Shown: positions 46,753 to 51,818 of the stretch, piece after piece
Numbering within the stretch: position 1 is the stretch's first letter
How the letters are laid out: each line of letters starts with the position of its first letter
Assembly (NCBI GenBank): GCA_001899805.1
Contig: MKWP01000010.1
Span: forward strand, 1-64,000
Origin: Lysobacterales bacterium 66-474
GTDB taxonomy: Bacteria > Pseudomonadota > Gammaproteobacteria > Xanthomonadales > Rhodanobacteraceae
Length of the DNA stretch: 64,000 nt
Direction of reading: 5' to 3'
The notes under the pieces: generated by a model
Database searches by the model: none
What the model saw: only the letters and a program-made list of their open reading frames with translations
Told to the model about the DNA's origin: nothing
Program-made: the position numbers and the translations under genes

Positions 46753-47634
46753 TCAAGCGTTAGGGGGGAGCTGTGTCGGTGGCGATGCGGAACCGTCCTT
46801 CTTCGAGGGTGGATGTTTATCGCTGCCGGATTTGATTTGCAGCAACGGTTCGACTGTCGCCGTGCCCGTACGATTCTTCAGGAAAATCGGATCGTACGGA
46901 TTGTCGCTTCGCTGGAATTGCCGGTAGGCGACGGAGCCGTCGATGGATCCGCCTTGCAACAAGCCTGCAGCCGTAGTCGTTACGCGAACGGGTCGGCCCG
47001 ACGTGCCGAGTGACACGGGTGTCTGCCCCTCATCCAGCACGCCAATCGAAAGCTCACCCGTCGTGCCGCCCGTCCGTGTGCCGGTCTGATGGGTCTTGAC
47101 CCATGTCCACTGCGCCTTGGCGCGCCTGAGCGCCACTTGGTCTCCATAGGTCTTTTTCAACTCGCCCCATAACTCGTCGGTTCGCGCGAACTCCGCTTTG
47201 CTCAACAACGTGACCATCTGATCGCGCACCGTTACATATTGCGACTCACTCCGCTCCGCTGCCAGCACCATCCAAGCCGCCCCCAACGGACGATCCACCG
47301 GAATACCCTGACCCTTGAAATACATCACCCCCAGGTTGTATTCGGCCGGCTTGTACGCCCACGACGCGGCGACCTTGTACATGTCGATCGCGTGCCGGTA
47401 ATCGCCCTTGCGGAATGCCTGCACGCCCAGCGTGAAGAACTTCACGCCCGGGCGCCCATCCGATTCCGGAGTGTTGAAGTCGCCATTGGACAAGCTGCCT
47501 GCGGACACACCCGACCCGTAACCCGGCGCGGAGATGACGTCAGAGGGTGCCCCGGTCTGGGCCATCGAAGCCAATGAGACGACGAGGGCAACCCCGCCGA
47601 CGATCGCAATGACGGACAACTTGCATGGCACCAT
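46753..47634 (-). CDS. Secreted Sel1-repeat-type protein, paralog 1
   Basis: The 293-aa product has a signal peptide (KLSVIAIVGGVALVVSLASMAQ) and a Sel1/TPR-like core (GVQAFRKGDYRHAIDMYKVAASWAYKPAEYNLGVMYFKGQGIPVDRPLGAAWMVLAAER). The C-terminal part has a conserved VAYRQFQRSDNPYDPIFLKNRTGTATVEPLLQ. The blocks FNTPESDGRPGVKF and VAYRQFQ...NPY are shared with the paralog upstream. ATG 47634 has GGAGG before it. Function unknown; Sel1 repeats usually mediate protein contacts. Confidence 0.75.
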   Translation of the reverse strand: MVPCKLSVIAIVGGVALVVSLASMAQTGAPSDVISAPGYGSGVSAGSLSNGDFNTPESDGRPGVKFFTLGVQAFRKGDYRHAIDMYKVAASWAYKPAEYNLGVMYFKGQGIPVDRPLGAAWMVLAAERSESQYVTVRDQMVTLLSKAEFARTDELWGELKKTYGDQVALRRAKAQWTWVKTHQTGTRTGGTTGELSIGVLDEGQTPVSLGTSGRPVRVTTTAAGLLQGGSIDGSVAYRQFQRSDNPYDPIFLKNRTGTATVEPLLQIKSGSDKHPPSKKDGSASPPTQLPPNA

Positions 47635-47741
47635 GACGAGCCTCCATGTTGATCGTGATCCTGCCTGCATTTTTTCCGGACGCTGCCCATTCGGGGTTCG
47701 GAAGAACCGGGAGAGCGCCGAAACGCCTTCACCGGCAACCA

Positions 47742-48650
47742 TCAACCTCGGTTTTCATGCGACGAATCATCACCCTTCTGCGGCGGCTGGCCGGATTTGG
47801 AGGATGTTGGCGGGAGCGTCTTCACTCCCTTCTTGTCGACTTGTTGCAGTGGACCCACCGTCGCCGTGCCTTTGGGGTTCTTCAGGAAAACGAGGCTGTA
47901 CGGATTGCTGCTTTCCTGGAATTGCCGATAAGCCACGGCTCCGTCCACGGAACCACCGGTCAGCACTTGCGCCGCGGTTGTAATGCTGCGACCGCCCGAA
48001 CCACCTCCCCCAGGGGTTTGCGTGTGAAGTTGGCCTTGCACGTCCTGGATCCCCACCTGCAGATTCCCGACCGTTCCGCCGACCCGCGTGCCCGTCTCCT
48101 GGCTTTTTGCATAAGCCCATTGGGACTTGGCGCGTCGCATCGCCGTCTTGTCCCCGTACTTCGGCTCGAGTTGCTGCAGCAGGTCGTAGGCCCGGGTGCG
48201 TTCCGCGGAATCCAGCCCGGTAACCATCATGTGGCGTGCACTGACGTAGTCGGATGCACCGCGCTCGGCCGCGATGAACATCCAGGCGGTTCCCAGGGGC
48301 CTGTTCACCGGAACCCCGCCCTCGCCCTGGAAGTACATGACACCGAGGTTGTAAGCAGCCGGCGCGTAGGCCCAAAAAGCAGCCAGCTTCAACATGTAAA
48401 TGGCGTGCTCGTAATGGCCATGGTGATAGGCATCCATGCCTTCCATGTAGAACTTCACGCCAGGCCGGCCATCCGATTCCGGCGTATTGAAATTGGTGTT
48501 GGACAGGAACCCGCTGCTGGCGCCGGAACTGTAATCGGGGCGAGCGATCTCGCCATTCTTTGTGGAGAGTTGTGCCGAAGCCGGGAGAGCGAGGGCCAAC
48601 GAAACCGCGGCAGGCAGCAGCACCGTGAACAATCCGTGATGGCGCTTCAT
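47742..48650 (-). CDS. Secreted Sel1-repeat-type protein, paralog 2
   Basis: The 302-aa product has a signal peptide (HHGLFTVLLPAAVSLALALPASAQ) and the same layout as its neighbour: SNTNFNTPESDGRPGVKFYMEGMDAYHHGHYEHAIYMLKLAAFWAYAPAAYNLGVMYFQGEGGVPVNRPLGTAWMFIAAERG, a helical segment, then VAYRQFQESSNPYSLVFLKNPKGTATVGPLQQ. The two genes are tandem on the same strand 107 bp apart and arose by duplication. ATG 48650 is preceded by GAGGTGTGCC. Partner and function are unknown. Confidence 0.75.
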   Translation of the reverse strand: MKRHHGLFTVLLPAAVSLALALPASAQLSTKNGEIARPDYSSGASSGFLSNTNFNTPESDGRPGVKFYMEGMDAYHHGHYEHAIYMLKLAAFWAYAPAAYNLGVMYFQGEGGVPVNRPLGTAWMFIAAERGASDYVSARHMMVTGLDSAERTRAYDLLQQLEPKYGDKTAMRRAKSQWAYAKSQETGTRVGGTVGNLQVGIQDVQGQLHTQTPGGGGSGGRSITTAAQVLTGGSVDGAVAYRQFQESSNPYSLVFLKNPKGTATVGPLQQVDKKGVKTLPPTSSKSGQPPQKGDDSSHENRG

Positions 48651-48825
48651 GGCACACCTCCTCTCGATTGAGCCGATATCGATGTTGTACGCCTGGACTG
48701 GCGCAAGGGCAAGCACCAGCCTGCACTGCGTGGGCTATTGCCCTACAACACACGGGGTCGGGAGCCGATGGCGGGCGTGCAGTCGCACTCGCAGTATCGA
48801 TGGCCGTCCACTGGGAGACTTGTCG

Positions 48826-49489: not shown

Positions 49490-50431
49490 TCATGCGCGCT
49501 TGCGAATCCGTGCCGCGCGCGCCGTTTGGCGCGGACGCTTCACAAGTCCGGCGGGCGGCACCGCGCGAAAACGCGCGGCCTCGTCGAGCAGCCATTCGCG
49601 GAAGGCCATGAAGCCGGCGTGCTTGCGCGAGCGTTCGGGATACACGAGGTAATGCGCCCGGTTTCCCTTCATCATCTCCGGGAATAGCGTGACAAGCTGT
49701 CCCGCCTCGATCAGCGGGCGCACCATCGTCGTGCGCCCGAGCGCAACGCCGAGCCCTCCCAGCGCCGCGCGCTGGCGCGATTCGGCATCGTTGAACGACG
49801 CCACGTAGCGCCGCGGCGCGCGTCCGCCGTGCAACGCGAACCAGTTTTGCCAGATGTCCTCGGGGCCCAGCAGCGGCAGCTTGCCGAGTTCTCCCAGCCT
49901 GGGCGGTTTGCGCCCGGCCAGCAATGCAGGGCTCGCCACCGGAGTCAGCCACTCCTCGATCAGCAGCTCAACGATGAGCCCGGGCCATTCCCCCATGCCG
50001 TAGCGCAACGCGGCGTCGCAACGGCCGTCCGCAAAATCCACCAATTCGATCGATGAGTCGAGGTTCAATTCGACCTCCGGGTGGTTCGCGACAAACCCCG
50101 GCAGCCGCGGCAGCAGCCAGCTGGAAGTCATCGATGGCATCGAGGACAGCGACAACGTGTTGTCGCAACGTGCGCACAGCGGCTTCAGCGCGTCCTCAAT
50201 CGCTTCCAGGTGCGGCGCGACGTTGTCGAGCAGGCGCTGGCCCTCGGCGGTGAGCTTCAGGCCGCGCGGGCCACGCACGAACAACTTGCAATCGACCCGC
50301 TCCTCCAGCAGCCGCATCTGGTGGCTGAGCGCACTCACGGTCAGGTGCAGGCGTTCGGCGGCGCGGGTCAGGTTCTGCGCCTGCGCGGCCGCGACGAAGG
50401 TTTGCAGGGAATTCAGCGGTGCGCGTGCCAT
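49490..50431 (-). CDS. LysR-family transcriptional regulator (GcvA-like)
   Basis: The 313-aa product has an N-terminal winged helix-turn-helix (LNSLQTFVAAAQAQNLTRAAERLHLTVSALSHQMRLLEERVDCKLFVRGPRGLKLTAEG) and a periplasmic-binding-like effector domain. SALSHQ and the GcvA-type effector region fit the GcvA/AmpR branch. It is divergent from the small MLKEL ORF and the EamA exporter, so it probably controls them. The effector is unknown. Confidence 0.9.
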   Translation of the reverse strand: MARAPLNSLQTFVAAAQAQNLTRAAERLHLTVSALSHQMRLLEERVDCKLFVRGPRGLKLTAEGQRLLDNVAPHLEAIEDALKPLCARCDNTLSLSSMPSMTSSWLLPRLPGFVANHPEVELNLDSSIELVDFADGRCDAALRYGMGEWPGLIVELLIEEWLTPVASPALLAGRKPPRLGELGKLPLLGPEDIWQNWFALHGGRAPRRYVASFNDAESRQRAALGGLGVALGRTTMVRPLIEAGQLVTLFPEMMKGNRAHYLVYPERSRKHAGFMAFREWLLDEAARFRAVPPAGLVKRPRQTARAARIRKRA

Positions 50432-50541
50432 GTTCGATATTCCTCAACATTCGTTTGAAAAATCGTCGCTACCGGCGGACGCGATGGCTCCCTATTCTTG
50501 CGCCTCACACTGCTTCCATGCAACACGGCATGAGGTGTCAC

Positions 50542-50730
50542 ATGTTGAAGGAATTGATAGGGCATTTTGGCGGCACGCAACCCCACGGCCGCAACATGGA
50601 CGACCAGTCGACCACCTGCGGCAAGGCTTGCGAGGCCGCGCGCCCGGGGTCGAACGGACCCCGGCAAAAAATTTCGGACGCCGCGAAAACGGCCGTCCAT
50701 CGGGATTGGCGCCCCCGCCTGTATTGGTAA
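50542..50730 (+). CDS. Small ORF with MLKEL...GG start, similar to the N-terminus of the EamA gene
   Basis: The 62-aa ORF begins MLKELIGHFGG and has GAGGTG just before the ATG. Its first 15 nt (ATGTTGAAGGAATTG) are identical to the start of the EamA gene exactly 200 nt downstream. The rest (RNMDDQSTTCGKACEAARPG...) has no recognised domain and is Cys-containing and polar. It may be a decayed duplicate or a leader peptide; translation is not proven. Confidence 0.35.
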   Translation: MLKELIGHFGGTQPHGRNMDDQSTTCGKACEAARPGSNGPRQKISDAAKTAVHRDWRPRLYW

Positions 50731-50741
50731 GGAGGTATCCC

Positions 50742-51818
50742 ATGTTGAAGGAATTGGCAAAACTGTCCGGCGGCATGCTGTTCCTCGGCGGCTATATCGC
50801 GAATGCGGACGACCTGCGGCGTTGGTCGCGCGACGAAGCAGCGCCTCCGACGCAACCCCCGCGTCGGGCAGGACATGTCCGCAACGACACCCCGCGTGAA
50901 CGGGACTGGCGTACCCCGGTTGAACTGCTGCTGCTCGCCGCGATCTGGGGCGGCTCGTTCCTGTTCCTCAGGATCTCCGCACCGAAATTCGGTCCCGTGC
51001 CCCTGGTGGACGTACGGCTTGCGCTGGGCGCGCTGGTGCTATCGCCGTTCCTGTGGCGGGCGCGCCGGCAACTCGCCGCCGTCGGCTGGTTCAAGATCAT
51101 CGCGATCGGCCTGCTCAACACCTTGCTGCCGTTCCTGCTGTTTGCATGGAGCGCGGAACGCGCGCCGGCCGGCGTCAGCGCGATCGTCAACAGCATGGCG
51201 GTTCCGTTCGCGGCGCTCGCGGCCTTCGCGCTGTTCGGCGAAACGATCGGCGGTCGCCGTGTGACGGGCCTGTCGATCGGGCTGGTGGGCGTGGCGGTGT
51301 TGGCGAGCGGCAATGTCCACGGCGCCGGGCTGGTGCCGGCGGTTGCGGCCGGCACCGTCGCCGCGTTGCTGTATGGCGTGTCCGCGAACCTGGTGAAGCG
51401 CTACTTCTCGGGCCTGCCGCCGGCGGCGGTTGCCGCGGCCACGTTGGCGTGGGGCGCGGTGCTGCTGGCGCCCTTCGCGGCATGGCAGTGGCCGTCCGCG
51501 CGCGTGCCCGCGCAGGCATGGTTCAGCCTGGTCGCGCTCGGTGTGGCCTGCACGGGATTTGCCTATGCGATCTACTACCGCCTGATCCAGCGCGTCGGCG
51601 CGCCGCGCGCGACCACGGTCACTTACCTCGTGCCGATCTTCGGCGTGGTGTGGGCGTGGCTGGCGCTGGGCGAACCCTTGACGGTCAGCATGGCCTTGGG
51701 TGGTGCCTTGATCCTGGGCGGCATGGCGTACGGACAATCGCAGCCGCGCCTGCGGATGGTGCGGCGCCTCGCCGTGACGCACGCTTCCGCGCAGGCGGGT
51801 ACGGAATGCCGCAACTGA
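50742..51818 (+). CDS. EamA/DMT-superfamily exporter with unusual N-terminal extension
   Basis: The 358-aa product carries two EamA repeats with about ten TM helices (PVELLLLAAIWGGSFLFLRISAPKFGPVPLVDVRLALGALVL and, later, GVACTGFAYAIYYRLIQRVGAPRATTVTYLVPIFGVVWAWLALGEPL). These transporters usually export amino acids or metabolites. About 57 residues precede the first helix: MLKELAKLSGGMLFLGGYIANADDLRRWSRDEA and a Pro/Arg-rich linker. AAGGAGG 6 nt before ATG 50742 supports this start. It is divergent from the LysR gene. Confidence 0.83.
   Translation: MLKELAKLSGGMLFLGGYIANADDLRRWSRDEAAPPTQPPRRAGHVRNDTPRERDWRTPVELLLLAAIWGGSFLFLRISAPKFGPVPLVDVRLALGALVLSPFLWRARRQLAAVGWFKIIAIGLLNTLLPFLLFAWSAERAPAGVSAIVNSMAVPFAALAAFALFGETIGGRRVTGLSIGLVGVAVLASGNVHGAGLVPAVAAGTVAALLYGVSANLVKRYFSGLPPAAVAAATLAWGAVLLAPFAAWQWPSARVPAQAWFSLVALGVACTGFAYAIYYRLIQRVGAPRATTVTYLVPIFGVVWAWLALGEPLTVSMALGGALILGGMAYGQSQPRLRMVRRLAVTHASAQAGTECRN

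Follow-up and report, generated by a model that had tools for sequence, protein, structure and literature searches.

In Methylomonas sp. DH-1, the LysR-type regulator WatR controls the unannotated ORFs WatS1-5 of about 50 aa together with an efflux pump, and the WatS small proteins have been proposed to alter the specificity of this pump (PMC10355033). With its LysR-type regulator, small proteins and efflux, WatR/WatS is the closest characterised parallel to the locus presented here (PMC10355033); the two are likened by description, and no sequence kinship is claimed. WatS1-4 are separate proteins with a predicted transmembrane segment, are associated with an RND pump and are encoded by genes scattered in the genome (PMC10355033), whereas the family found in our study has another core, is encoded beside the LysR gene and occurs fused to an EamA protein. 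A second parallel comes from Brucella, where very small DUF1127 proteins are among the main targets of the LysR-type regulator VtlR (PMC12595884). Here too the likeness lies in this kind of regulation, and no sequence kinship is claimed. The small proteins described here, which have no Pfam match, belong to another family than DUF1127, and a fusion to an exporter is not described for VtlR (PMC12595884). AcrZ of E. coli, in the form in which it is cited in PMC10355033, is a separate short polypeptide binding the RND pump AcrB. By analogy, we propose that a short polypeptide may tune an exporter at our locus as well, but the segment there is joined covalently to the EamA protein and its docking on the transporter core is only proposed.

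EamA proteins form a family of small-molecule exporters. With EamA/DMT exporters (PF00892), such as YedA-like proteins, the exporter described here has two EamA stretches in common. Compared with its unfused orthologs, N- and C-terminal additions are present only in the fused form. The locus lies in a window of 64,000 nucleotides from Lysobacterales bacterium 66-474 (genome G000), which is the whole stretch of DNA analysed. Genome comparison established, at the level of sequence, a small-protein family, its linkage to a regulator, its fusion to an exporter and a tandem duplication, and suggests that small-protein control may be wired directly into the exporter.

A small-protein family linked to a LysR-type regulator

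The window contains the gene of a GcvA-like LysR-type regulator (49490..50431, minus strand; PF03466 and PF00126), to which, among solved structures, a GcvA-type activator (8y6u) is closest. Divergent from it, on the plus strand, lie a first ORF of 62 aa (50542..50730) and an exporter gene encoding 358 aa (50742..51818), which is open and conserved in 10 genomes. The exporter gene begins with an extension of 57 codons (50742..50912), which is matched by profile to standalone proteins and is absent outside the genus.

A profile built from extension rows of this genus only (A2) detected standalone small ORFs throughout the order, with E-values down to 5e-9, and these carry a core like MSSLWTDLLFLHGHITDPELARRLA. 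A search for standalone proteins had been named in advance as a check on the sequence-only reading of this locus, and such proteins exist in numbers. The combined, order-wide profile (A3) includes the window row, so that its match to positions 50757-50876 of the window (E 2e-16) has the row itself inside the profile. With this combined profile the family was present in 139 of 399 Lysobacterales genomes. Its proteins are mostly 47-90 aa long and share the core LLFLHGHI. A class-wide sample of Gammaproteobacteria gave three hit genomes, all of them Lysobacterales, and none among about 270 genomes of other orders. Since the extension itself is a member of this widespread family, the notable event at the locus is a gene fusion; this membership had escaped the sequence-only reading. 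Neither Pfam nor NCBIfam held a family for any of the small proteins tested, the family profile had no meaningful match in the PDB, and no paper on the family was found in the open-access literature; it is uncharacterised and undescribed. AlphaFold2 predicted two short helices (residues 4-11 and 18-26) and a coil tail for the small protein, the helices with moderate confidence; the model as a whole (pTM 0.29) is too weak to support a fold search. As modelled, neither helix would be long enough to span a membrane.

Of 88 loci examined, 72 have the small ORF head-to-head with a LysR gene whose product is 47-57% identical to that of the window. The distance between the LysR start and the small-ORF start usually is 94-123 nt. 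In the window, 110 nt separate the LysR start from that of the first ORF, and in members that lack the first ORF (e.g. G108) it is the fused gene that lies at the usual distance. A reverse search, seeded with 29 LysR orthologs, led to the small ORF or its fusion in 28 cases, 25 of them core-bearing. The other three of these 28 were diverged small ORFs, one of them in G026, and the last locus had a GST-like gene in place of the small ORF. Within the intergenic region, an inverted repeat TCAA-N7-TTGA was read by eye at 50444..50458 (no strand assigned), and it recurs at the corresponding position in G024, G108 and G071. It is a possible LysR operator, to which the regulator would bind.

Not all members follow this arrangement. 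A second member in the genome of the window (L116, contig C14, near 404301) comprises 34 aa (MSSPWTNLLLLHGHIHDPEVVRRLGDMPSAPPPG), has no head-to-head LysR gene and is possibly truncated. A second subfamily without a neighbouring LysR gene was observed in L135, L148, L149, L156, L161, L171, L204 and L021; its tail often resembles RLCLGIGDGxxxTQ, and in some of these loci a GST-like gene precedes or follows.

The genes downstream of the small gene vary. A co-directional gene following it usually encodes an aldo/keto reductase (about 22 loci) or an MDR oxidoreductase (3-4 loci). In three genomes a separate EamA gene follows, either adjacent (G300) or nearby (G413 and G437). Elsewhere the following gene is often convergent. 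There are also many loci in which no divergent target other than the small gene is evident. Because LysR is the constant partner while the downstream genes vary or are absent, the regulator is no less plausible a target of the small protein than the exporter. The small protein might thus act back on LysR as a co-factor, anti-regulator or feedback sensor, and the fusion would then link this feedback to the membrane without the exporter being the target. The many loci with the small gene as sole divergent target favour such feedback, but closeness to the regulator is expected of any regulated gene, and the EamA fusion, the adjoining separate EamA genes and a further fusion point to effectors instead. 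We regard feedback on LysR as possible and no more than tentatively so. The further fusion was found in another family of the order, in L246:2525-3091:+ (G211), where the core is followed by a SnoaL-like polyketide cyclase domain and the protein ends in SACA; it apparently is independent of the EamA fusion.

Fusion to an EamA exporter

The exporter matches PF00892 with an E-value of 3e-38 and 131.4 bits (gathering score 28.2) in two EamA stretches. NCBIfam models of YedA and other DMT exporters match it weakly, all below their curated cut-offs, and therefore no substrate can be assigned. The 57-aa extension was present in 10 out of 10 orthologs found in the genus, a lineage known largely from Rhodanobacteraceae-type metagenome-assembled genomes, and in none of 22 orthologs from other genera. 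The earlier claim that it is missing from usual EamA members therefore holds outside the genus, while inside it the extension is universal among the orthologs found.

The closer non-genus orthologs, which belong to the same family, are 50-61% identical, mostly carry a DWxTPxEL motif and begin about 11-20 residues before it with short, unrelated N-termini. More distant orthologs start at the first helix. As the unfused orthologs mostly carry DWxTPxEL and begin shortly before it, DWR is part of the ancestral exporter, and the stretch ahead of it is an addition of this genus. Codons 1 to about 53 of the extension are the fused LysR-linked small protein plus its linker, and RDWR is ancestral exporter sequence. 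In G026, a small ORF that starts with MLKEL, as do both copies in the window, and an unextended EamA ortholog lie on different contigs, which represents the pre-fusion state.

The extension could in principle be a start-site artefact, with the exporter beginning at a downstream codon. M12 is an in-frame ATG, and the orthologs outside the genus are shorter. On the other hand, the purine-rich ribosome site AAGGAGGT precedes M1, the residues M1, L2, E4, A6, G10, G11, M12, L15, G17 and R26 are invariant in the 10 fused orthologs, and the extension is a member of a protein family in its own right. An artefact is thus very improbable, and we keep to the reading as a fusion. In the AlphaFold2 model of the exporter the extension was not confidently modelled (pLDDT below 50).

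Two observations concern the surroundings of the exporter gene. A gene for a cupin protein (PF07883; 51820-52350, plus strand) follows it and adjoins the exporter gene also in G024 and G139; the two possibly form one operon. In G149 (L018), a standalone version of 79 aa beginning with MLKELARLSTDLLFMHGHIAV lies beside LysR at the same place without an exporter, and could be either the unfused state or a remnant of a lost exporter.

The fused exporters also differ from their unfused orthologs at the C-terminus. A tail with a C-terminal Cys (51738..51815, plus strand) is absent from the unfused orthologs (0 of 22) and was found in all 10 fused exporters, in five of them as CxxC. Standalone proteins likewise are rich in such residues: in 49 out of 72 at least one of the last 14 residues is a Cys (25 expected from shuffled tails), and C-x(1-4)-C occurs in 13 (1.8 expected from the same shuffling of the 72 tails). 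A kinship of the exporter tail with the standalone tails is suggestive only, the tails being low in complexity, and hints that an effector domain may have been inserted between core and Cys tail. This leads to a broader interpretation, in which a Lysobacterales-specific small protein with N-terminal core, flexible linker and C-terminal Cys or CxxC would be the dedicated output of the GcvA-like LysR regulator and serve as an adaptor responsive to stress or redox state, the EamA and SnoaL-like effectors having been inserted between core and tail. We consider this interpretation unlikely as a whole; if it were true, the adaptor would have become part of the effector.

Tandem duplication and the first ORF

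The exact direct repeat CATGTTGAAGGAATTG of 16 nt lies at 50541..50556 and 50741..50756 (both plus strand), with a spacing of exactly 200 nt. A search of the 3.73-Mb genome that allowed up to one mismatch gave no further copy of its 15-mer. Because the window contains two further exact direct repeats (32333/32555 and 60094/60205) that are at least 15 nt long and have their copies within 300 nt of each other, the 16-nt repeat alone is not decisive. We therefore compared the DNA between the copies, excluding the shared start and DWR, at offset 200 and at 100 other in-phase offsets as controls (101 in all). Identity was 41.5% at offset 200 and 27.6 +/- 3.3% at the control offsets, so that offset 200 held rank 1. 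In relatives, the test gave rank 1 for G024 at its own spacing of 194 nt and rank 8 for G084 at 197 nt. In both products of the window genome, RDWR is reached at equal distance from the start. The repeat pair thus marks an old, diverged tandem duplication of about 200 bp, and the duplicated unit comprises the ribosome site and some 57 codons from the start of the exporter gene. The sequence-only reading had proposed a start duplicated 200 nt apart with its own ribosome site for each copy. This was borne out, with an exact match of 16 nt.

Elsewhere in the window, two adjacent ORFs of 330 and 324 aa (46753-48716, minus strand) resemble tandem paralogs, with FNTPESDGRPGVKF among the stretches that they share.

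The first ORF is headed by repeat copy 1 behind the purine-rich ribosome site GAGGTG and is the truncated duplicate of the exporter 5'-end, with its best DNA match at offset 200. It was found in G000, G024 and G084 only. In genus members without it (e.g. G108), the exporter starts directly behind a ribosome site of the first-ORF type. The LysR tree rejected a single clade of the three carriers (AU p 7e-5), and the EamA tree did so weakly (p 0.04). Hence, loss, strain-to-strain exchange or repeated duplication has to be considered, and recombination between the direct repeats is a possible route of loss.

An LLFLHGHI-like core was not found in the first ORF, and the extension profile scored it no better than shuffled decoys. 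Since the profile misses it, its origin rests on the DNA register and the shared ends, by which it is best described as a paralog by register and not as a family member by motif. As side observations, a W-P-R-L-like C-terminus is common to the first ORF and some standalone proteins, and L192 (G428, another genus) has the same layout as the window, with LysR followed by a diverged ORF beginning with MNIWTQLLSLNGHPLD and a core-bearing ORF beginning with MNLFKSLLFLHGYV. The latter is preceded by an AAGGAG site and holds a second internal core copy; the observation concerns the region upstream of the 103-aa ORF. Two core copies within one ORF were also seen in L197 and L206. A CGKAC string common to the first ORF of the window and a standalone protein in L124 is not kept in G024 and G084 and was taken as chance.

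The first ORF might be a decaying duplicate without function. The core LLFLGGH is lost, the ORF is scattered over three genomes only, pairwise dN/dS among these is 0.43-0.66, and the middle of the protein is variable and barely alignable. Against decay, the start and ribosome site are kept and the frame survives two indels, both multiples of three. Moreover, the three genomes agree in the last ten residues and in the stop, the DNA there showing synonymous differences only; the C-terminus RDWRPRLYW-stop is the most conserved part. Because of this unchanged C-terminus and the in-frame indels, translation of the first ORF is favoured, and the pattern of substitutions suggests that it is translated. 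Decay without function is in our view rather doubtful. Of the earlier proposal of a decayed paralog, the paralogy and the loss of the family core stood, while frame and C-terminus proved to be kept.

The end of the first ORF bears on its relation to the exporter. Its stop overlaps the exporter Shine-Dalgarno site in TAAGGAGGT (50728..50736, plus strand), which is identical in G024 and reads TAAGGAGACC in G084. A stop inside the Shine-Dalgarno site of the next gene is the usual geometry of translational coupling, and the first ORF and the exporter may be coupled in this way. The same overlap, together with the conserved C-terminus behind a variable middle, would also suit a regulatory leader, in which translation of the first ORF, or a pause at RDWRPRLYW-stop, sets the translation of the exporter. 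No RNA structure, attenuator or terminator signal above shuffles was found in the first ORF, however, and in most genus members the ORF is absent and the exporter is read directly. A leader of this kind is therefore a possibility on which we place limited weight.

A small secreted peptide was the remaining proposal for the first ORF, considered here as a double-glycine peptide exported by its neighbour. GG at residues 10-11 would speak for it and had been noted near these positions in both copies. This is correct for G000, and G024 has the GG in the first ORF as well, but the first copy of G084 reads LGD. Furthermore, the co-encoded transporter is of the EamA type, no conserved mature peptide beyond the C-terminus was seen, and no pointer to secretion was found. 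We consider a secreted peptide hardly credible. What the tandem duplicate does offer is an example of how the 5'-end of a longer gene can give rise to a new small ORF that brings along a ribosome site of its own.

Proposed mechanism and implications

The joint explanation that we put forward, and to which we give about an even chance, is that of a divergent LysR/small-protein module that was fused to an exporter and tandemly duplicated, that is driven by LysR and translated in a coupled manner, and whose small-protein segment modulates the exporter or docks on it. The LysR protein would respond to a stress metabolite or electrophile, drive both ORFs from the shared intergenic promoter and thereby turn on the small protein together with a detoxifying or exporting output. 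The segment of 200 nt with ribosome site and N-terminal region was duplicated, copy 1 giving rise to the 62-aa ORF, the translation of which would be coupled to that of the exporter. In DMT proteins the N-terminus is cytoplasmic. The fused small protein would lie at the cytoplasmic side of the exporter, modulating it or serving as a docking segment, and free members of the family may work on other products under the same regulator, i.e. aldo/keto reductases, MDR oxidoreductases and separate EamA exporters. From linkage and fusion we infer that the small protein functions as a LysR-controlled modulator, here tethered to a stress exporter.

To our knowledge, a partner is known for only a minority of bacterial small proteins. 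In this case, comparison connects a family not described before with one particular regulator, with detoxifying enzymes and, via the fusion, with an exporter. The natural fusion thus gives a direct and testable pointer to a partner, as well as a ready construct.
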